Shown here piece after piece: positions 3,160 through 33,100 of a stretch of DNA of 54,629 nucleotides. The translations under genes and the position numbers were made by a program. The notes under the pieces are model-generated. The model saw only the letters and a list, made by a program, of their open reading frames with translations. It was not told the DNA's origin and made no database searches. Position 1 is the stretch's first letter; every line of letters starts with the position of its first letter. The stretch comes from a virus, in IMG/VR virus record IMGVR_UViG_3300040815_003619, positions 1 to 54,629 of that record; one strand, given 5' to 3'.

Positions 3160-3820
3160 TTAATTTAATTTTCATCAACAAAATTTCTATTTCATTGGCA
3201 ATATCATATACTTTTACTAGTTCATCTGGAATTTCTCCGGCAAGTAAAGTCTCAGCGTCTTTTAAGTCATTTACTAAATCCCAACAAAGATGACAAAAAC
3301 TCTTATTTATTTCTTTAACTACTTTGTTTTCGGCTTTTAGTACCTCTAGCTCACTTAAATCTTTCTCATGTTCTGTTTTATTATTGCTATTAGCAAAATA
3401 TTTTTCTACATTTGAAGACACTTCTTGATCTGACATTTCTTTTATTTCTTCACATAACTTTTGTTCGAAAAGATCATCTGTTTCTAGAGGAGAATAATAA
3501 AGACCAAGATTACACTTTTCAATAATGTCTTTTACTTCTTCTAAAGTCCAAATAATTTTTGTATATAACATTCCTCTCTGTGAGCTAGTTATAACAAATT
3601 TATAAATTAGACTAGGCGCATCCATTACTAGACCTGGAGGGGCTTTAAAATCTTTTTGAAAGTTTTTTTCCCAAGACTTTACAGCACTTATAATCTTGCC
3701 TAAACTTTGACTTTTTTCTAATATTCTGTCCAGTCCCCACGGATCTGTTTCAGCTAATTCTATCTGCCAAGTGTTTTCTTTGTTTCTTAGAAATTTTTTT
3801 ATTTCTTTCACGTTGTTCAT
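3140..3820 (-). CDS. hypothetical protein
   Basis: 226 residues, unrecognised. The N-terminal half contains Trp/Pro-rich stretches (TDPWGLDRILEKS, KAPPGLVMDAPS); the C-terminal half is acidic and likely coiled or helical, ending in an Asn/Lys tail. Two cysteines with a histidine (CHLCW, near residue 175) form a lone CxxC without a partner pair. It is separated from the upstream gene by only three bases. Confidence 0.65.
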   Translation of the reverse strand: MNNVKEIKKFLRNKENTWQIELAETDPWGLDRILEKSQSLGKIISAVKSWEKNFQKDFKAPPGLVMDAPSLIYKFVITSSQRGMLYTKIIWTLEEVKDIIEKCNLGLYYSPLETDDLFEQKLCEEIKEMSDQEVSSNVEKYFANSNNKTEHEKDLSELEVLKAENKVVKEINKSFCHLCWDLVNDLKDAETLLAGEIPDELVKVYDIANEIEILLMKIKLNDNNNK

Positions 3821-3823
3821 AAC

Positions 3824-4291
3824 CTAAATCCACTTGTTACAATCTGTACAACCATATCTTGTAGGAAAGCCTGGCCTTCTATCTTCAATTGTATTTTGAT
3901 GAGCACATTTAGCTTTTGAAGTCTGTGTAGTATATGAATATTGCATATCTTCAGGGCTAGAGAAGTCTTGCAGTCCTTCCTTGTAACCTTTTACAAAAGA
4001 TTGATATAGACTTTCTTTTACATCTTTTTCTGATAGATCAGACAGTTCTACAGTTCTATAATTGTCATGTAACCAAGTTTCAAACATAATAGGAATACTA
4101 ACATCGTGATACTCTGTATTTAAGCCTCGATGATAACCTGCATTATAAGAATTGACTTCGTAATTAGACCACATTTTATAAAAAATACTTTCTTTTGAAT
4201 AATTTGTAGATTGATATTTAATTTTCTTCAACAACTTTTTTAAGAATAGAGAAACTGTGTCTTTCTCTAGAACCATCAAACCACCAGACAT
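3824..4291 (-). CDS. hypothetical protein with C-terminal zinc-ribbon-like motif
   Basis: Up to 155 residues; unrecognised. The C-terminus has a Cys-x-His then CxxC arrangement (KCAHQN, 15 or so residues, YGCTDC), which resembles a small zinc ribbon. The start is uncertain. The ATG at 4291 forces a 74-base overlap with the upstream gene. An ATG at 4276 shortens the overlap to 59 bases, and an ATG at 4174 (MWSNYEV) removes it, giving 116 residues. Residues before MWSNYEV look like an out-of-frame reading of the neighbour, so the short form is plausible. Confidence 0.6.
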   Translation of the reverse strand: MSGGLMVLEKDTVSLFLKKLLKKIKYQSTNYSKESIFYKMWSNYEVNSYNAGYHRGLNTEYHDVSIPIMFETWLHDNYRTVELSDLSEKDVKESLYQSFVKGYKEGLQDFSSPEDMQYSYTTQTSKAKCAHQNTIEDRRPGFPTRYGCTDCNKWI

Positions 4292-4418
4292 AGTGCCAGT
4301 TTGGGGTAATTTTTGTAATTATTCCAATATAACTTTCATTAAAACCAATATGACTTACTAGATCACCTTCTTTAAGACTTTGATTGGAAATAGATTTGTC
4401 ATAATAGAATATTGACAA
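4218..4418 (-). CDS. small SH3-like protein with TTG start
   Basis: 66 residues. The pattern EGDLVSHIG, YIGIITKI, VWWFDGS matches the SH3-like mini-protein family seen at 1916, 2125 and 5381. The start is TTG at 4418, set by a duplicated leader that also starts the dnaE gene: promoter, GGTGAT Shine-Dalgarno and TTG are identical in the two places. It is the first gene of the small-gene operon that runs left to about 1916. Function unknown. Confidence 0.7.
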   Translation of the reverse strand: MSIFYYDKSISNQSLKEGDLVSHIGFNESYIGIITKITPNWHYVWWFDGSRERHSFSILKKVVEEN

Positions 4419-4462
4419 TTTATCACCTTTCTATGTTTTTTATATTATATACACATTATTTC
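4411..4462 (-). repeat. 52-bp direct repeat, copy B (promoter and leader of small-gene operon)
   Basis: Perfect copy of 1840-1891. It supplies -10, Shine-Dalgarno and TTG start to the 66-residue gene, so a whole expression leader was duplicated rather than a coding segment. Confidence 0.95.
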
Positions 4463-4472
4463 ATATTTACAA
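4444..4472 (-). promoter_or_regulatory. sigma70-like promoter of small-gene operon
   Basis: Minus-strand -35 TTGTAA (4467-4472), 17-bp spacer, -10 TATAAT (4444-4449). Same architecture as the dnaE promoter; the -35 lies just outside the perfect repeat. Confidence 0.75.
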
Positions 4473-4497
4473 TATAGAGAATTATATAGGCTGAAAC

Positions 4498-5379
4498 ATG
4501 AATAGAAAAGAATTTACTAATCTTCTTCTCGAATGGCGAGAAAACTTTATTATTGAAAGAGGCTTGCCTCATGAAAAACTTGGAAAATTTGAAGGTATAA
4601 TAAAATTTTCGGAGCTTGTAAGGAAAAACCCGAGTATCATACCTATTGAGTTTGTTACGTTTAAGTTCAATCAAGAGAAAAAGCCTTTTTATCAAGATAT
4701 TATAGCAAAGTATAGCTCTGAAGGGAGCAACAGAGAAGCTGTTTTAGATAACACAGAACAAAATAGACAAGCCATAGCAAAAGATTTAGAGGACGCAAAT
4801 CTCATTGACAAAGTAAAGTCTAATCAAATATTAAATTCTTCAGACGCTGATATTGTTATAATACCTGAAGAAGGTGATATTTCTTCAGAAATAAATAAAG
4901 ATTCAATGGGTAATACAATTTGGTCAATACATGATTTGTGGCACGCTTATTTACAAGATGTCATTAAATATAATTTTAAATCAAAACATGACCATAATGA
5001 TTATTACTTGTTTTTAGAGTTTGTAATGCAAGCTCTTTCAACAGAAGACTATCCTCATTTTTTTGACTTTGTTGACGCTGATCCTTCGATATTCGCTTTT
5101 TTGTATTTGTTTATTATGGAATTTGATAGTCAAACAAATGAATTTGATATTGAAAAATCAAATAATAACATTGATAAGCTAAAAGCTGACTTGCAAAATT
5201 TTGATCTATCAAACTATTTGAGCAAAGATGAATATCCTGATTACTTAGAGAAAGAAACAATTGTAAATGTTGATTCTCTTATAGACACAATTAAAAATAT
5301 AAACAAAAGTACTTGTGAGACTTTGCAACAAAAGATTTTTAATAAAAACAAAGAGATTAAATTAGAAATCATATCGTAA
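4498..5379 (+). CDS. hypothetical protein with capsid-targeting-like N-terminus
   Basis: 293 residues and the only plus-strand gene in this part of the window. The N-terminus (residues 1-20) is an amphipathic segment reading FTNLLLEWRENF and then IIE, which resembles the short head-targeting leaders of T4-type internal proteins that the prohead protease cuts after (L/I)xE. A conserved-looking IHDLWHAYL near residue 143 has two histidines four residues apart plus an acidic neighbour, possibly a metal site. The rest is acidic and helical. It converges on the gene at 5381 with one base between stops. A role as a packaged or injected protein is inference; sequence similarity was not testable here. 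Confidence 0.7.
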   Translation: MNRKEFTNLLLEWRENFIIERGLPHEKLGKFEGIIKFSELVRKNPSIIPIEFVTFKFNQEKKPFYQDIIAKYSSEGSNREAVLDNTEQNRQAIAKDLEDANLIDKVKSNQILNSSDADIVIIPEEGDISSEINKDSMGNTIWSIHDLWHAYLQDVIKYNFKSKHDHNDYYLFLEFVMQALSTEDYPHFFDFVDADPSIFAFLYLFIMEFDSQTNEFDIEKSNNNIDKLKADLQNFDLSNYLSKDEYPDYLEKETIVNVDSLIDTIKNINKSTCETLQQKIFNKNKEIKLEIIS

Positions 5380-8723: not shown

Positions 8724-8752
8724 ATTATACAATACAAAAGTCTAATTTACAA
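8724..8752 (-). promoter_or_regulatory. sigma70-like promoter of epimerase gene
   Basis: Minus-strand -35 TTGTAA (8747-8752), 17-bp spacer, -10 TATAAT (8724-8729). The -35 is formed by the last codons and stop region of the upstream Fpg-like gene (ends Val-Val-Asn-stop). Confidence 0.8.
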
Positions 8753-11031: not shown

Positions 11032-11060
11032 ATAATAAATAATTTTTGTCTAATTTACAA
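11032..11060 (-). promoter_or_regulatory. sigma70-like promoter of ThyX-like operon
   Basis: Minus-strand -35 TTGTAA (11055-11060), 17-bp spacer, -10 TATTAT (11032-11037). The bases after the -35 (ATTAGAC) match those at the 8724-8752 promoter, so the conserved element is longer than a hexamer. Confidence 0.75.
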
Positions 11061-24326: not shown

Positions 24327-25529
24327 TTACTCCAAGCCACTTACATCAATGTGTTCTGCGATTGCTGACATTTCTTCATATGATTCTGCATCAATGTGAA
24401 TGTCTTCATCTGTTACTCTTGCCTTAACCATTGCTTTCTCTAGGAGTCCGTCAACATAAGGCTTTGTCTCTGGGTTTCTCATAATCTTATAGAAGTCTGC
24501 TTTGTAGAATTTCTTCTCAAATACAATCTCTCCATCAAGTGTTGCTACATTCAAGTGTTTCCATGCACCATTTCCACTAATTTCTACAATATGTTCATCA
24601 ACCTGCTCAGCTCCATGTTTTCTTAGAATATCAAATACTTCCTCATGTTCTTTAATGCCGATACCAAAGTGGATCTGAAAGTTTGTTGTCCTAAAAGGTG
24701 CAGTTACCTTATTCTTAATTGTTTTTGCTGAAACATTGATACCAATTGGCTCTTTGTCTTTATTAAGAATAGGTGAACCTGCACCAAGTTTAATACGAAC
24801 TGAAGAGTGGAATGGGATTGCCATGCCGCCAGGTGTAGTTGTTGGATCACCATACATTACTCCTACTTTTGTTCTAATCTGATTTAGACAAACCATAAGA
24901 ACATTTTCATTAGCAATAACTCCTGTAATCTTTCTCATACCTTTTGAGATAGCGCGTGCCTGGAGCCCAATACTTTCTTTATCATAATCTCCAACAAGCT
25001 CTGCACGAGGTGAAGATGCAGCAACAGAGTCCCAAATAATAGTTACTGGAACATCTTTTTGCATTGCTTTAGCCTTAAGAATAGTGCTTTCAGCAATAGA
25101 AAGAACTTCTTCTGTGCAATGCGTATCTACATAGACAAAACGCTTGTTAATGTCTACACCAAGTGCATTAAGGTTTTCAATGCTTGTTGCATTCTCAGTA
25201 TCGATATATACAACAATACCATTCATCTGCTGTGTAGAACGAGCAATCTGTGTTGCGATATGTGACTTACCAATAGATGGAGGTCCAAAGATTTCTACAA
25301 TACGTCCTTCTGGAAGTCCACCATTTCGTCTATTAGAGATAATATAATCTAATAGTTGTGAACCTGTACTAATCCACCTATTGACATGCGTAGGAGATTC
25401 ATCTGTGCTAAGATTATATGCTACACGAGTTCCTCTTTCTTTGTTTAGTGACTTAATAAGATCAGCGGTAAAGTCCTCTGCCGCTCCACTGGTTTCAACT
25501 ACGGGATCTGCTTTTTTCTTTCTAGCCAT
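24327..25529 (-). CDS. recA: RecA/UvsX-type recombinase
   Basis: 400 residues. Forms the ATP-dependent presynaptic filament for strand exchange and recombination-dependent replication. Seen: GGLPEGRIVEIFGPPSIGKS near 70-89 with Walker A GPPSIGKS, VVYIDTENATS near 105, Walker B VTIIWDSVAASSP, CLNQIRTKVGVMYGDPTTTPGG near 214-235 (loop L2 region), and AIPFHSSVRIKLG. The loop region is more like bacterial RecA than T4 UvsX. The start AUG follows AGGAGGT, which lies in the 3' arm of a perfect 10-bp hairpin (25533-25562); a promoter inside that hairpin would make a message without the 5' arm. Confidence 0.96.
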   Translation of the reverse strand: MARKKKADPVVETSGAAEDFTADLIKSLNKERGTRVAYNLSTDESPTHVNRWISTGSQLLDYIISNRRNGGLPEGRIVEIFGPPSIGKSHIATQIARSTQQMNGIVVYIDTENATSIENLNALGVDINKRFVYVDTHCTEEVLSIAESTILKAKAMQKDVPVTIIWDSVAASSPRAELVGDYDKESIGLQARAISKGMRKITGVIANENVLMVCLNQIRTKVGVMYGDPTTTPGGMAIPFHSSVRIKLGAGSPILNKDKEPIGINVSAKTIKNKVTAPFRTTNFQIHFGIGIKEHEEVFDILRKHGAEQVDEHIVEISGNGAWKHLNVATLDGEIVFEKKFYKADFYKIMRNPETKPYVDGLLEKAMVKARVTDEDIHIDAESYEEMSAIAEHIDVSGLE

Positions 25530-25532
25530 ATG

Positions 25533-25562
25533 AAAATACCTCCTGGTTACAAGAGGTATTTT
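25533..25562 (-). promoter_or_regulatory. hairpin over the recA ribosome-binding site
   Basis: Perfect 10-bp inverted repeat, arms 25533-25542 and 25553-25562, with a 10-base loop. In the recA message the 3' arm contains AGGAGG of the Shine-Dalgarno. Read-through transcripts would mask the ribosome site; transcripts from 25558-25586 start near 25551, inside the loop, and cannot form it. Confidence 0.7.
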
Positions 25563-25586
25563 ATCAACGGTCTTAACTTTTTACAA
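25558..25586 (-). promoter_or_regulatory. sigma70-like promoter of recA
   Basis: Minus-strand -35 TTGTAA (25581-25586), 17-bp spacer, -10 TAAAAT (25558-25563). The -10 overlaps the 5' arm of the ribosome-site hairpin. Confidence 0.65.
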
Positions 25587-25592
25587 AATTAT

Positions 25593-26417
25593 TTAGAAAG
25601 GAGATGCATCATCCTCAAGTTCAGCGAAAGCAGCATCAAGTGACTCAAACTTAGAAGACACAGGCTCGGAAGCTTTTGGCTCGTCACGAACAACTGCTGG
25701 TGCAGACGCTGTTTGACTTCCACCACGTGTAGTTCCAACGCTGCTAGAAGATGATTCCTCATCATCACCATTAAGCCATGCATTTACGATTCGCTCAAGC
25801 TCTTCATAAGACTTAGCCTCATAGAGATCATCAACACGAGGAACATTGCTTGTCCACTTCTGAATTTGATCTGCTGACTCAGAAAGTGGCGTAGACTTTG
25901 GACGAGGACGAACCTCGGTTGTTGCCCACATCTTTCCTGGAGCCTTGAAGCAATTAATACGAAGATCATTACCTTCTGCTACATCAGTAATATCACCATA
26001 GTCCTCATCAAGCATGTAGTTCAAAAGTGACTGGTAGATTTGCTTTCCAAATGCCCAGAGACGAACACCTTTATCTTCCTCACCACGAACAATAACTGGT
26101 GCAAAACAACGCATCTTAGGATAAAGCTTCTTAGCAAGCTCGTAACTCTCTTTACTTCCATCGTCACGAAGCTTATTGATAAGCTCTTGGATAGGATCTG
26201 GATTACCGAACTGGTAAGGTGCCAGAAGTCCTGGGTTATTGCCAATGTTGTAGTAGAACATTAGCTCTTTGAATGGTTGTCCGTCATTATTAGGATAAGC
26301 GATAAGTCGAACTGTTGTCTCCTCACCTTCCTCTGGTCGCCACATGATGTTTCGCTTGCTGTTTGCACCGCTGAGCTGACCAAGTTTACGACGAATTGCA
26401 TCCATATCGATTGCCAT
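25593..26417 (-). CDS. single-stranded DNA-binding protein (gp32-like)
   Basis: 274 residues. Coats single-stranded DNA at the fork and recombination intermediates. Seen: an N-terminal basic segment (IRRKLGQLSGANSKRN) matching the LAST-like cooperativity region of gp32, an OB-type core from about 25 to 210 opening with EETTVRLIAYPNNDGQPF, and a Ser/Ala-rich linker leading to an acidic C-terminal tail ending DDASPF, the shape used to recruit partner proteins. The core has none of the gp32 zinc cysteines except one (CFAPV), and another in INCFKAP. Its leader looks suited to autoregulation. It is upstream of recA. Confidence 0.9.
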   Translation of the reverse strand: MAIDMDAIRRKLGQLSGANSKRNIMWRPEEGEETTVRLIAYPNNDGQPFKELMFYYNIGNNPGLLAPYQFGNPDPIQELINKLRDDGSKESYELAKKLYPKMRCFAPVIVRGEEDKGVRLWAFGKQIYQSLLNYMLDEDYGDITDVAEGNDLRINCFKAPGKMWATTEVRPRPKSTPLSESADQIQKWTSNVPRVDDLYEAKSYEELERIVNAWLNGDDEESSSSSVGTTRGGSQTASAPAVVRDEPKASEPVSSKFESLDAAFAELEDDASPF

Positions 26418-26503
26418 ATTTTTCTCCTTTGTTAAATGTGTAAATGTTTTTTTGGTAACTGTTTAATTTTTTATTTTTTTTAAGCCAGCCACCTAATGGC
26501 GAC
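26418..26503 (-). promoter_or_regulatory. structured, A-rich leader of the SSB gene
   Basis: Between the promoter and the SSB start there is a 5'-proximal stem (arms 26488-26493 and 26498-26503, two G-U pairs) followed by a long A/U-rich unstructured stretch with UUAAA elements. T4 gene 32 uses a 5' structure plus such repeats so that gp32 represses its own translation. The parallel is structural; the pseudoknot itself is not proven. Confidence 0.5.
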
Positions 26504-26506
26504 TGT

Positions 26507-26535
26507 ATAATATACTTATTTTATCTTTTTTACAA
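26507..26535 (-). promoter_or_regulatory. sigma70-like promoter of SSB gene
   Basis: Minus-strand -35 TTGTAA (26530-26535), 17-bp spacer, -10 TATTAT (26507-26512). Predicted start near 26500 gives a leader of about 83 nt. Confidence 0.7.
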
Positions 26536-26542
26536 ATAATGT

Positions 26543-26884
26543 TTATTTTTTAGTTTTTCTTTTTTTATTGCTTTTTCTGAGGTGCTTGCTTGGTCCTTCA
26601 ATTGGAGAGTCTTTAGTTCTTGGGTCAGCATATCTAACTTTTCCTCTTGGACCTGCACCTACTGGAACCATAGGACCACTAACTGCGGCAGCGAATGAAG
26701 CCTCATCAACTTCAGAAGGACCACATTCGTTACAAGACTCTCCTTCAGAACAACCACAAGATTTTCCTTCACCTTCTGCACATTCGCATTTTTCGCCTTC
26801 TGCACATTCACAAGGCTTTTCTTTTAACATTATTTTCTTTTCAGATAAAACTTCTCTAATATAAGTCTCTAGTAATCTTTTCAT
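26543..26884 (-). CDS. Cys-rich repeat protein with capsid-targeting-like N-terminus
   Basis: 113 residues. Residues 1-15 (MKRLLETYIREVLSE) form an amphipathic helix ending in L-S-E, which resembles a head-targeting leader cut by the prohead protease. Residues about 24-54 contain repeated CxC and CxExE units: CECAEGEKCECAEGE, CGCSEGESC, CNECG. The rest is Gly/Pro-rich and ends in a very basic tail (KSNKKRKTKK). The Cys cluster could bind zinc or other metals, or be cross-linked; function is unknown. It sits between the SSB and HD-like genes and is preceded by AAGGAG. Confidence 0.72.
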   Translation of the reverse strand: MKRLLETYIREVLSEKKIMLKEKPCECAEGEKCECAEGEGKSCGCSEGESCNECGPSEVDEASFAAAVSGPMVPVGAGPRGKVRYADPRTKDSPIEGPSKHLRKSNKKRKTKK

Positions 26885-26914
26885 AATAACTCCTTGTTAC
26901 TATTTATTACTAGA

Positions 26915-27475
26915 CTATTTATTTAAGACATGCTGCCTTGCTGTTTGAATAAGAAAAAGAAGACCTTTATTATGTCCTGCATAAAATCTGTTTTCTTCAA
27001 AGTGCATACCACCTGATAGTTGAATTGCTAACCACTCTTCTTTAGTAAGTTTAACACCATAATGCTGAAGTAGAAATAATGTTTTATGTGTCATTGACAT
27101 TTTATCACATTCTTCATTCCACTTATAAAGTTGACCTAGTTTTTCTCTATGCCAATCGGAATCTTGAATAGAAAATGTGTCTTGTTCTAGATCACCAATA
27201 CGTCCTAAGTCTGAAAGAAGTGATGTAAGAAGAATACTTTTTGTTGAGCAGTTTAGACCTAGTGCTTCGTTTAGACTTCTTGCAGCCTTTGCTACTTCTA
27301 GGCAAAATTCAACTAAGCCGCCTGGACCAGTAAAAGGTTCGCTTGATGACGTATTAAATGTACATTCAGCAATTCTTTGTCCTTGCTCACTAAGCAACAT
27401 ATTAAGGTTATGATCAGATAGTCTTTTTAGGAGACCTTCGTATTTACCCCAGACTTCTTCAATATTTCGTTCCAT
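26915..27475 (-). CDS. degenerate HD-domain protein
   Basis: 186 residues. Order of elements matches HD-type phosphohydrolases: a first helix (LVEFCLEVAKAARSLNEALG near 54-73), ILLTSLLSDLGRIGD near 80-95 where the diagnostic His-Asp is Ser-Asp, WHREKLGQLYKW near 107, and a C-terminal helix with HKTLFLLQHYGVKLTKEEW then LSGGMHFEE. The aligned metal histidines appear mostly missing, so enzymatic loss and a binding role are likely. It overlaps the polymerase gene by 17 bases, implying coupled expression. Confidence 0.65.
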   Translation of the reverse strand: MERNIEEVWGKYEGLLKRLSDHNLNMLLSEQGQRIAECTFNTSSSEPFTGPGGLVEFCLEVAKAARSLNEALGLNCSTKSILLTSLLSDLGRIGDLEQDTFSIQDSDWHREKLGQLYKWNEECDKMSMTHKTLFLLQHYGVKLTKEEWLAIQLSGGMHFEENRFYAGHNKGLLFLIQTARQHVLNK

Positions 27476-28616
27476 ATAAATCCTCTACACTAATTGGAAA
27501 ATTACCAAGTATGCTACAATTATATCCTTGTTTAACTTCTTTTACAAATTCATCGATATAATCTTCTTTAACATCGATCATAAGCGCATCATGAATAATA
27601 AAGATAGGTTTTGCTTGATTTTTGTCTAGTCTTTCATAAACTTTAGAAAAACCGCTTAGGGCAACATCAACAGCCGTAGACTGCACATAATTGTTTAATA
27701 TGACGTTTTCTTCGGTGACATGATTATTCCATAAGGTACGACCCCAAAAGTTTGTTCTGCGTCCGTTTTCGCTGCTTTCTTGAGCCATTTCAAGGCATTG
27801 ATCAACGCATAAATACTTGTCAATATAACTGCATAGTTGATCGACTTTGTCTTTTGATATTTTCGAATATAAACTCTTTTTTGAAGAACCATATACAGCT
27901 GAAATGATTGCTTGTTTTACAATTGATCGGTCAATATCTAATTCTAGACTTGACATAATTTCTTCATAAATGTCGCCTTGACAATCCCAGCCACCTAATT
28001 TACGCATAATTCTAGGTTCTAACGAAACAAAATCAATATAAAATAACTTACCCTTTTCAAAGGATGACTTAAATATATTTCTATATTTGCGTGGAAGCGT
28101 TAAAATATTTGCTTGACTTTTAGAAGATAAACGTCCGGTCACAGTTTCAGACCTAGAATATTCTACTTCTTTATTAGACTTAAAACCTAACAGATTTGTT
28201 TTTAATGTTTCATTCTGTTCTAACAATAGATAAGCATTTAATGCTTTAATATCTACGTTATATTTAGTTATATTTCTATATAAATCTTGTTGATTATTAT
28301 AGACAGAAAAATATCTATCTGATTTAGCTTCTTCTATAAAAGATTGTATCTCATCTTTTACAAATTTTATAAGACTATTTTTTTTGCTTTTTGGCAAAGA
28401 CTCAACAAGATTAATGTTTTTTACATTAAGGCTTTTGAAAATATTTAAGTGTTTTTCTACGTCGTTGCTAAAGGTTGTTTCTTTAATAGAAAATGTTTTA
28501 TTTAAGTTGTCTTTTAGAAATTTATTTTGAAAAAAGGATAGATCAAAGATACAATCAATTTCATAAGGAAACTCGATATCTTTTGAAAATAAATTTTTAA
28601 TATTTATAAAACTCAT
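27459..28616 (-). CDS. minimal family A DNA polymerase (Pol I palm/fingers only)
   Basis: 385 residues. Contains only the polymerase region. Seen: SETVTGRLSSKSQANILTLP near 156-175, motif A KLFYIDFVSLEPRIM near 190-204 (usual DYSQIELR), motif B DRSIVKQAIISAVYG near 229-243 with the Arg, Lys and Tyr-Gly positions, and motif C FIIHDALMID near 343-352 with the catalytic Asp (usual HDE is HDA). There is no 3'-5' or 5'-3' exonuclease. Typical Pol I is over 850 residues; T7 polymerase about 700. It may be a primer-gap filler, or the true replicase beside DnaE. Confidence 0.88.
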   Translation of the reverse strand: MSFINIKNLFSKDIEFPYEIDCIFDLSFFQNKFLKDNLNKTFSIKETTFSNDVEKHLNIFKSLNVKNINLVESLPKSKKNSLIKFVKDEIQSFIEEAKSDRYFSVYNNQQDLYRNITKYNVDIKALNAYLLLEQNETLKTNLLGFKSNKEVEYSRSETVTGRLSSKSQANILTLPRKYRNIFKSSFEKGKLFYIDFVSLEPRIMRKLGGWDCQGDIYEEIMSSLELDIDRSIVKQAIISAVYGSSKKSLYSKISKDKVDQLCSYIDKYLCVDQCLEMAQESSENGRRTNFWGRTLWNNHVTEENVILNNYVQSTAVDVALSGFSKVYERLDKNQAKPIFIIHDALMIDVKEDYIDEFVKEVKQGYNCSILGNFPISVEDLYGTKY

Positions 28617-28622
28617 AAAAGA

Positions 28623-28651
28623 ATAATATAAATATTGTATCTAATTTACAA
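28623..28651 (-). promoter_or_regulatory. sigma70-like promoter of family A polymerase gene
   Basis: Minus-strand -35 TTGTAA (28646-28651), 17-bp spacer, -10 TATTAT (28623-28628). As at 8724-8752, the -35 is formed by the Val-Val-Asn-stop end of the upstream gene, and the bases following it (ATTAGA) are also shared. Confidence 0.75.
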
Positions 28652-30113
28652 CGCTAAGTGCATCCTTTATAAGAATTCTTTTTAACTTATATTCTAAAGT
28701 TACGTCAGATACACCTGCAGCATTTGAAAGAAATCTTGAACTTAAAGTGCTACTATCTAAAAATTTAACATAAGTTGCATGATTAACAATTTTTCTACAT
28801 AAATCTTTAGTAACTTCAGTATTTATTGTTCTATATAACCTTTTAAGATCCGGGCTCATTTTATTAACTTCATCACTTTTTAACTTTTCAGTATATTCAT
28901 AGTAAAAAATATCTCGCTTTTTTTTATTATATGTTTCTTTTAGTTTATTATTTAAGGCAGGTGTAGGACTTTTGCGATAATCATTAATTATCTTATTATT
29001 AAGAAGATTAAAATGATCAAAGCTAGGATCTCCTGGGTTTCTAATTGCATAATAAATTTTATTAATAAAGTATTCATATACAAAGTATTGCACATTGTCA
29101 AAATCACTAACTAAAAGATTGACTTCTATTATTATCATTAAAAAAAGCAAGTTAATATAATTCAAAGAATATTCTGAATTTGGAACTAAATACGCGCTAT
29201 CTATATTAGCATTTCTAAAATTAGCAGTTGTGCTGCTAATTATTTTTTCACTTTTTTTATCATTAACTTTTGCAAATTCGTTTATTAATGTTCTAAATTG
29301 AATAGGCGTTAAATTTTGTAAAGTTATAAATCCACTAAATTCTTCTAAAGTACCGCTTATTTTTCTAGTTCTAAGCGTAATTTTATTATTTAATGTATTT
29401 AATTCAGGCTGAATTGTAGTTAATTCAGAAGAGATGTCCTTGCCATTAATTATACCAGTAGTTATTGCATTAGAAACGTCATGTGATATACCAAAATTTG
29501 AAGATGCTAAAGTTAACTTAGCAGACGTTTTTGGTCTTTTAGGATTGTAAAGTCTTGCTTTGTAATTTTGAAAAAGTTTTAATGATACTTCTTGTATACT
29601 TAGAATTCCTCCTTTTTGAGTTGTAGAATCATATTTAATATAAAATATATCAAATCGTGGACCTCTGCTATCATCTACAGTTAACCATTGTGAGTTTTTA
29701 TATAATTTACTTCTTGCTTTTAAATTTCCGCCTAAAAGTATACCTACATTTGGAATTTTTAAATCTTTTATTCTGCCAGCTATATAAATATTTAATTTTA
29801 TATTATTGTTAAATAATCTTAATTGATTTTCTATACTATATGCTTCGTTTTTATATGTTTTTGTCCTAGTAATTCTTCCTTGATTTAATATTTTTTTATA
29901 ACCAGTTCCCACAATTGGGTCTTTAAAAGCTTTTGACAAAACTTTATTATTTTCTAAAGTAACACTTACATCTGAGTTAATTGATGATATATCACCTACA
30001 CTTAAAATTTGTGGTATTAATATTCCAGAAAATCCTGATTGTATATTAGGTTGATAATCTAAATCATTATCTTCGCTTTGATTTGTAAAACCTCCTACTT
30101 TTAAGTTGCTCAT
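28641..30113 (-). CDS. probable virion structural protein, unknown
   Basis: 490 residues, unrecognised. Beta-rich N-terminal half (LTLASSNFGISHDV, KITLRTRKISGT) and a helical C-terminal half with a hydrophobic stretch YINLLFLMIIIEVNLLV near 320. It ends the long minus-strand tail operon, seven bases after the 1105-residue baseplate-type gene, so it is probably a baseplate or tail component; that is inferred only from position. Its final codons form the -35 of the polymerase promoter. Confidence 0.65.
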   Translation of the reverse strand: MSNLKVGGFTNQSEDNDLDYQPNIQSGFSGILIPQILSVGDISSINSDVSVTLENNKVLSKAFKDPIVGTGYKKILNQGRITRTKTYKNEAYSIENQLRLFNNNIKLNIYIAGRIKDLKIPNVGILLGGNLKARSKLYKNSQWLTVDDSRGPRFDIFYIKYDSTTQKGGILSIQEVSLKLFQNYKARLYNPKRPKTSAKLTLASSNFGISHDVSNAITTGIINGKDISSELTTIQPELNTLNNKITLRTRKISGTLEEFSGFITLQNLTPIQFRTLINEFAKVNDKKSEKIISSTTANFRNANIDSAYLVPNSEYSLNYINLLFLMIIIEVNLLVSDFDNVQYFVYEYFINKIYYAIRNPGDPSFDHFNLLNNKIINDYRKSPTPALNNKLKETYNKKKRDIFYYEYTEKLKSDEVNKMSPDLKRLYRTINTEVTKDLCRKIVNHATYVKFLDSSTLSSRFLSNAAGVSDVTLEYKLKRILIKDALSVVN

Positions 30114-30120
30114 TTAAACC

Positions 30121-33100
30121 TCAAATTTCAAAAATGTTAAAAATAAATGTACTTTTGCTTCCAGGTGGACGTCTTCTATAAGCAGCCGCAGCTTCCAATC
30201 TTTTTATTGCGGCTCTTTCTTCTGCAATTCTTTTTGCTTCTTCTCTTGCAGCTTTTTGTATTGCTTTTAGAGAATTTTCAAGAGCTAATTCTGAAACTAT
30301 TCTGCTTTCGTATTTACCATATACATCACCATATTGAAGAGTTAATCCACTTTCAAATCTTCCTGGACCAATACTATGTTTTATTCCTACAACGTTATAT
30401 AAATTATCTATTGTTGTTCCTGTGCCAAAATCAAAAAACATACTTTGCGCAAAATTTATAACAGGACAACCTATTGTTGTTAAGTCTACTTTTGATGGAA
30501 GAACTCTTAAAGGCAAGTCATCAGCACCTATACCTACAGACCTTTGTAAATTATTAGCACCGGTTTCTACTTCTCTATCTGCTCTTGTTATAAAAACTGT
30601 TGCTAGTCTACCTTCATTTATTGTTTGAAACGATGCATTTTTTATCGCACTATTCTGAGAACCATACGTTAAAGAAGGCATTATCTTTTTATAAGTTTCT
30701 TTTACAGCACCAAACCTAGTATTCAAAATAATATCAGTTGAAGTTTCATTTCCTTCTCTAACTTTAGCATTTATTACTTTGAATCTTTCATTTAACTGCT
30801 TGTTAAAACGTTTAAGCTCTCTGTCTCTACCTTTTCTAGTTAAATCACCGCGATTAATAATCATTTCTTGATTAAGAGTTTGAAAATCAGTTTTTATGCC
30901 TTCAGTTATAAGATCATATGCTCCTTGAAAAGGTGTATTTGCTTTATCAAAGATATGAACTCTTAAAATAGTGTCATCTTCTTGATTAGTACTCTTAAAA
31001 GAAAAAATAGGCTCAGGTGATACGCTTAAGTTATTTAGTCTCTTCTTTCCAGACTTGTGTATAACCTCTGTAGAAAACCCTATACGAGGAGCTACAAAGT
31101 CAACTTTTCTAGTTAAAGCTCTAGTTTGTTTATCCGTAAGTTTACTTACATCTGTTTCAATTGCACTTTTTAGAACAGCATATTCTTCATCTGTAAAGTA
31201 TGTTCTATATAGTATTTCTTTTTGTGAAGCTGCCGCGGATCTTTCTGTAAGACCGTCCGGAACCTTAGTGTTGCCTGTCTTAGCGTCATAAATATAAATT
31301 CCTTTGAATCCGAATAAAAGGCTGGCTTTATTTTCTATAAACCTTTTACTTAAAGTTTGGATTAAAGCACCTATTGAAAGTTGCTCGAGTCTTTTTTGAA
31401 TTATTTCTGTTATAAAAGTTTTTAACTCTTCTTTGCTTATTGGTAAATTCGCAATATTAACACTTGATGCCTTAGAACACTTACTATTTGTGTTGTAAAA
31501 AATTAGCTGAACTTCATTAAATCTTTTAGTTTGTATTAGATTTTTACCAAGTGTTGCTAAAACAACTTTACCAAATGAAACATAGTTGTCTATACTTTTT
31601 GATTTATTTGATTCATCAATAACAACTCCTTTGTCGTTTATTAGACCTAGTTCTAATAAAACTTCGAATGAAAGATAAGGATCATGTTTATTGCTGATTA
31701 CAGTATTATATTCTTCAAAAATTGAACCTTTCGCACTATTGATACTTTCAATTTTCTCTTTTAATATCTTGGCTCTCTCTCTTAAGATATTATCAATATC
31801 TCTTCCTTCTCCTATGTTTTTAGAAGTAATTAGTTTTTCTAAACTAGCAACATAATCTTTTCCAAAAGTTGAAGAGCTTTGAATTTCATTTGCTAAAGAA
31901 ATATATTTTTGGTACTCGGCGTCACTATCTTTTGCATTAAAATTAGAAACTGTGCTACTAAATTCTTCTCTAAGCTCTTCAAAAGCTTTAATACTATTTT
32001 TAAGACTTGGGGAGCCAAATATGTTTGTATTGACAATATCAGTTGCGCCAAGCATTGCTAGGGACAAAGATATTTTTACTTCACCAGTTTCTTGTAAACT
32101 AAACGTGCTATTGACAATCATATATTTTTCTCTAGCACGCATGAGATTCATTATTGCCCCAAAAGGATTTGACCCGTCCGGGTGCGCCCAACCGTATTCA
32201 ACAGAAATTTCAGAACCATAAGTACCAAAAAGGTCTGGTTTAATAAAAGGTGCAACATCAGCCATTCTACTTCTATCGTGAAGAACTAGTTCTAATTGAG
32301 CTGTTTTATAACTTAATAGTCCTCTTGTAGGTTTAACGTCGATATCAAAAGAAGATATTGACATAAAAGGGCGCATTTTATCAATAACAGGGGTACTTCT
32401 TCCAAATTCTGCTTTTGTTGCTCCTGGAAAGTCAGAGTCAGCTCCACTATATTTTTCTTCCGTATTTACCATTGTTTGAGGAGCTAGAAATATATCTAAG
32501 TTTGTTGCTACACCTAATTTAGTTGCAGATTCTCCTTTATCATTTTCCATTCTTTTAAGGAAAGTATCACCTCTATAAGCATTCATTGTTTCTTTAGTAG
32601 CTTTAGGTTCTGAACCATATAAAAAGTCTGCATTGTTTGCAACAGTAAATTCTTCTACAACGTTACTTTTTCTCTTAAAAATTCTTCCGGGCAAACTAAA
32701 CTTCGCTGATATTATTGGCACACATCTTGAAAGTTCTACAGTCGGAATCATATTAAGAAATACAGCTAATTCGGCAGTTTGTCTATTTCCTATTGCTAAA
32801 GATTCATCAAATATTTGATATGTTGTCAAGTGAGGATCTTTTTTAGTAGGTTTTGTGTTAGGATTTCTATTAACTTCAGGATCACCTAGCAAACTTCTTA
32901 TAGAAAAAGGTTCTTTAGAAGTTACAGTTTTATCAGCCTCGTCTATTATTTGCCCTTGAACATTACAACTGGTAGCAATTGTTCTTGTTTCTTTGTTTAC
33001 AATATGTTTACTTAACGTGGTTCTAAAAGAGTTTTTTTGTAAGTTAAGAACTTGAATATTATGTTGATCTTCTAAAATAATGTCACTATCATTTAGAGCA

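Follow-up and report, generated by a model that had tools for sequence, protein, structure and literature searches.

The DNA analysed here, a stretch of 54,629 nt from a virus (hereafter the window), carries on its minus strand a single-strand DNA-binding protein gene (ssb) followed by a recA/uvsX-like recombinase gene (recA), with genes for an exonuclease, a helicase and others past recA. Read along the minus strand, the junction has the order ...CTTTCTAA (ssb stop) ATAATTTTGTAAAAAGTTAAGACCGTTGATAAAATACCTCTTGTAACCAGGAGGTATTTTCATATG (recA). A compact cassette of ∼60 bp combines a promoter, a proposed gate and the ribosome site. The features are listed below; L numbers refer to viral contigs.

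26507–26535, minus strand: ssb promoter TTGTAA-17-TATTAT, of the same class as that of recA; also present before ssb in the L006 contig
25593–26417, minus strand: ssb, single-strand DNA-binding protein, 274 aa (PHROG 1192, E 7e-17)
25581–25586, minus strand: −35 box TTGTAA of the recA promoter (TTGTAA in L005 and L006; TTATAA in L087)
25558–25566, minus strand: extended −10 TGaTAAAAT, hexamer 25563–25558 (TAAAAT kept in L005, L006 and L087)
25550–25562, minus strand: 5' arm AAAATACCTCTTG (L005, L006 and L087 share its first 11 nt)
25550–25551, minus strand: predicted recA transcription start, 7–8 nt past the −10, placed by spacing
25546–25549, minus strand: hairpin loop UAAC (differs in L006, AUAAA, and L087, AUAACAA)
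25533–25545, minus strand: 3' arm CAGGAGGTATTTT, which holds the Shine-Dalgarno sequence (GAGGTATTTT identical across all cassettes)
25539–25544, minus strand: Shine-Dalgarno sequence AGGAGG, 9 nt before ATG
24327–25529, minus strand: recA/uvsX-like recombinase, 400 aa (PHROG 97 UvsX-like recombinase, E 1e-69)
1873–1901, 2729–2757, 4444–4472 and 8724–8752, minus strand: other TTGTAA-N17-TANNAT sites, exact match
11032–11060, 26507–26535, 27519–27547 and 28623–28651, minus strand: other TTGTAA-N17-TANNAT sites, exact match (continued)

Hairpin and promoter before recA

As the initial annotation had described, a perfect 10-bp inverted repeat with arms exactly at 25533–25542 and 25553–25562 (AAAATACCTC/GAGGTATTTT, 25562–25533 on the minus strand) masks the AGGAGG of recA. 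Repeat search indicated that the pairing grows inward to 13 pairs including one G.U (25533–25545/25550–25562); the stability of the hairpin was −14.8 kcal/mol, and the Shine-Dalgarno sequence (SD, 25544–25539) lies entirely inside the 3' arm. The −10 box had been placed in the 5' arm and the transcription start in the loop. The −10 hexamer (25563–25558) does overlap the arm, apart from its first T, which lies one base beyond it. The predicted start does fall near 25551, but at 25551–25550, where the extended 5' arm ends, and not strictly in the loop; a short RNA from there would retain at most 2 nt of the 5' arm. An Rfam search at the recA locus gave 0 matches. The loops of the window cassette (25546–25551, minus strand) and of two related cassettes described below (L006 and L087) all hold purine-UAA(C/A) where the short RNA presumably starts, a motif that we did not see at the other TTGTAA promoters.

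The recA promoter has the form TTGTAA-17-TAAAAT, with an extended −10 TG at 25566–25565. Exact TTGTAA-N17-TANNAT sites occurred nine times on the coding (minus) strand of the window and 0 times on the other strand, mostly just upstream of gene starts, ssb and recA among them. The same two boxes at spacings of 14–16 and 18–21 were found 0–3 times per strand. The L006 contig has this class before both ssb and recA, and among 146 distinct recA leaders the spacing between TTG(A/T)A(A/T) and TA...T peaked at 17 (26 leaders; next 10, at spacing 19). Judged from these patterns, the recA promoter is real as a member of a phage-wide class, and the proposal of an adjacent promoter overlapping the 5' arm gains support from its place among the nine sites. 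The late promoter TATAAATA was looked for near recA and was absent. The regions 1850–1901 and 4420–4472 (minus strand) are near-identical promoter-leader copies (TTGTAAtA..GAAATAATGTGTATATAATATAAAAAACATAGAAAGGTGATAAATTGTCAAT) at a duplicated gene start.

Folding and conservation of the hairpin

Folding of the 141-nt read-through stretch gave a z of −3.6 (0/200 shuffles were equally stable), and an RNA beginning at 25551 folded without stable structure. The computed probability of an unpaired SD in the window was 0.001 for the read-through RNA vs. 0.57–0.66 for RNA from 25550, in agreement with the earlier claim that the former is closed and the latter, here mostly, open; the values in L006 were 0.17 for read-through and ∼0.7 for internally started RNA. 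SD accessibility was lowest for recA among 52 candidate gene starts (0.02; next 0.09). The recA leader hairpin is the single perfect 10-bp hairpin (loop 3–12) in the 54.6 kb, vs. 0–3 (mean 1.7) in 12 shuffles, and its occurrence somewhere in the window is unremarkable by chance. The chance of such a hairpin falling on the SD of some gene is low, ∼0.03 by a rough estimate. The conservation seen in aligned relatives is stronger evidence for the hairpin than these fold statistics.

Relatives were gathered by searching viral contigs for recA and ssb, plus a DNA pattern scan. Cultured phages were searched for similar DNA and none was found, the nearest cultured SSB/RecA being ∼35–40% identical. The cassette is carried by L002–L004 (as in the window), L005 (96% RecA identity), L006 (92%) and L087 (74%), which were counted as three diverged cassettes (window/L005, L006 and L087). 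Alignment of the window, L006 and L087 showed that the −10 and the arms were held while the promoter spacer and loop had diverged. The 12 arm positions outside the −10 and SD were invariant between the window and L006, vs. 1/11 in the adjoining spacer (p ∼1e-5), and the arms remained invariant while fourfold sites were 0.62–0.68 identical. Two of the invariant segments are ACCTC, lying past the −10 and before the start, which has no promoter role and falls in a stretch that is variable at other TTGTAA promoters, and TATTTT between the SD and ATG, which has no SD role. Their invariance beside a scrambled spacer and diverged fourfold sites argues for pairing. An arm pattern permitting one changed pair returned 0 new cassettes; with three independent cassettes, the arms are too constant to reveal covariation.

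SD occlusion among the 146 recA leaders was highest in the window, L005, L006 and L087 (0.01–0.05; next 0.11; median 0.48), and the hairpin is absent in L007 and L062, which are closer relatives outside the clade. A loose recA-start pattern (GAGG..MARKKK) matched mostly unrelated genes, together with seven further phage recA relatives that stand outside the hairpin comparison. The cassette is present in two recA lineages. L087 has identical arms with a third loop and a third spacer, which match no other member seen. The body of its RecA (3553–4873, minus strand) groups with another lineage except around the first residues, which resemble those of the window, so that the cassette looks exchanged between lineages; this looks like either recombination between lineages or a chimeric (mis-assembled) contig. 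The segment 25530–25592 is identical in L005 although recA fourfold sites are just 0.71 identical, which suggests local recombination or strong constraint.

Possible roles of the hairpin

We propose, with a probability of roughly 0.62, that the hairpin gates recA translation according to where the RNA starts. RNA entering from ssb would carry both arms, and its SD would be folded away; RNA from recA's own promoter would start at the 5' arm tip or close to it, lack the arm and be translated. Such masking of the SD on read-through RNA, together with its bypass by recA's own promoter, is likely. RecA synthesis would then be tied to this promoter, not to the message of ssb or of genes further upstream. 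The genes after recA are not hidden by the hairpin, so the gate may alter RecA relative to its neighbours. Translational coupling from ssb was considered and rejected: 30 nt separate the ssb stop (25593–25595) from the 5' arm, a distance over which terminating ribosomes should not open the hairpin.

Relatives without the cassette often have a terminator after ssb, a separate recA promoter, or both; the terminator score was >0 in 75 of the 146 recA leaders. In two distant cultured phages, recA begins 3–9 nt after ssb. Independence of recA from the ssb message thus appears to be an outcome common to relatives, and the purpose of the hairpin, seen beside these arrangements, is probably to uncouple recA from ssb messages by keeping the SD of read-through RNA masked. 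The terminator and promoter of relatives likewise free recA from the ssb message, but they act on transcription, stand side by side and leave the ribosome-binding site (RBS) open, unlike the window cassette, which would do the job of both. Terminator prediction on the minus strand from 25530 to 33000 found none.

The hairpin might instead be mainly an intrinsic ssb terminator with a nested recA promoter, so that upstream messages end in the recA SD region and internal ones continue. Terminators between ssb and recA are common in relatives, as noted above, the cassette is without any other, and the scores of the window (−6.0) and L006 (−1.9) are near threshold. All three cassettes nevertheless score below zero (L087, −20.3). 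The U-run is short (UUUUCA; UUUUCA or UUUUUA after the cassette stems) and is itself paired in the stable form, and the 3' arm covers the SD precisely, an arrangement shared by T4 e and 49, which also score as non-terminators (−48 and −26). We regard termination as unlikely to be the main role; weak or partial termination by the recA hairpin is possible.

Structural genes lie upstream of recA on the same strand, and a gate could in principle work in reverse, with recA on early from its host-type promoter and the hairpin silencing it on late read-through from the structural genes. We consider this distinctly unlikely; if true, a recombinase would be switched off post-transcriptionally in late infection.

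A third explanation is that the repeat has no regulatory role and is a chance product of three local features, the −10 being A-rich, the spacer T-rich and the SD strong, and is kept by descent. About 1.7 such repeats are expected per window, the intergenic identity of the window and L005 at 0.71 fourfold identity suggests local recombination, and L087 looks mosaic. This explanation is quite improbable, given that arm positions serving neither promoter nor SD do not vary, unlike the adjoining spacer and loop, and that extreme SD occlusion is confined to these cassettes among the 146 leaders.

The loops UAAC, AUAAA and AUAACAA all contain UAA(C/A) and thereby resemble the gene 43 operators, whose loop is UAAC in T4 and RB69 and UAAA in RB49 (PMC3014915), but an operator at which phage RecA, SSB or polymerase represses recA translation, as at the T4 gene 43 operator, is very improbable: UAA is frequent in A/T-rich loops, the stem top and loop length vary, the polymerase fragment (27459–28616) has a family-A-like motif (read by eye) and is not shown to be a gp43 relative, and the internal RNA cannot form the hairpin, so that any action would be confined to read-through RNA.

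Comparison with known leaders

The ssb leaders of related phages (L234, L235, L238, L244, L249, L256 and L261) have a pseudoknot close to the 5' end of the RNA, similar to the autoregulatory operator of T4 gene 32 (PMC535899). Covariation is seen in its stem 1, where 97.6% of cells are paired (0/500 shuffles), and its loop AAUUG pairs with a downstream CAAUU, followed by A/U-rich UUAAA-like repeats and then the SD. An Rfam search with this pseudoknot gave no match. The ssb leader of the window (26418–26507, minus strand) and that of L006 have a different yet conserved pairing, GGUGRCUG/CAGUUACY.

A hairpin-arm scan of viral contigs returned at least 67 distinct AATACCTC..GAGGTATT..ATG leaders before ORFs, in which a late-like promoter (A)TAAATACCTC serves as the 5' arm over GAGGTATT before ATG (L101, L103, L131, L146, L153, L160, L206 and at least 60 others). 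Among the matches listed, the leaders with an ORF had A at −1 before the arm in 66/67 and T at −2 in 56/67, giving TAAATACC; matches without an ORF had A at −1 in 30/43 and T at −2 in 10/43 (difference, p 4e-10). Representative genes are those for a head-tail adaptor, an endolysin, RuvC-like and RusA-like resolvases and a terminase, as well as unknown genes. T4 e and 49 function in lysis and Holliday-junction resolution, respectively, and the late-like masked leaders resemble them in standing before lysis and Holliday-junction resolution genes. As far as these motifs indicate, the T4-like form of the masked leader is widespread among viral contigs. A scan of viral contigs for hairpins only also returned many ordinary terminator-like palindromes.

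It was reported previously that the RBS of T4 e, soc and 49 is masked in longer RNAs, the long early RNA of e being masked and its late RNA open (PMC3014915). For I-TevI, I-TevII, I-TevIII, segB and Aeh1 mobE, the read-through RNA is RBS-masked and the RNA from an adjacent internal promoter is open (PMC2988022); an adjacent promoter gives the open RNA in the studied cases of masked leaders (PMC2988022, PMC3014915). In T4 e and I-TevI, a late promoter delays a gene that is silenced on earlier read-through RNA (PMC3014915, PMC2988022).

The window recA shares with the T4 e/49/I-TevI type a predicted sequestration of the SD on the longer RNA and an internal promoter whose sequence overlaps the 5' arm. 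Its likeness to T4 e extends to a promoter in the 5' arm, an SD in the 3' arm and a common core, AATACCT..GGAGGTATT. The leaders of T4 e and of T4 49 (endonuclease VII) fold with the layout of recA's when run through the same script, 49 and recA both being recombination genes, and the I-TevII leader fold is also similar. There are differences as well. T4 e has the late promoter TATAAATA before a lysis gene, whereas the window has a host-type promoter before a recombinase gene, and the masking of e is proven experimentally, whereas the recA case is known from sequence. The leader of 49 has a late-like AATAAATA. I-TevI, I-TevII, I-TevIII, segB and Aeh1 mobE are homing endonuclease genes with T4-type middle/late promoters and mapped RNA starts, unlike recA of the window.

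The initial annotation held that the logic is the same as in T4. This holds for the structural masking layout, but the temporal early/late logic is not supported: the window recA has TTGTAA-17-TAAAAT and no TATAAATA, the ssb promoter, which is the closest one upstream, is of recA's own class, so that the internal promoter is not of a later class than this neighbour, and recA functions in replication/recombination. The recA case would function like the T4 e/49/I-TevI family, as a variant of that family. If the proposed gate is true, RBS masking on read-through RNA serves more than the delay of late genes in T4; it also makes a replication gene independent of the gene before it and is interchangeable with a terminator. 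As compared here, a known T4 device is found on an unusual gene, with a different promoter, and appears to have been kept in several phage lineages.
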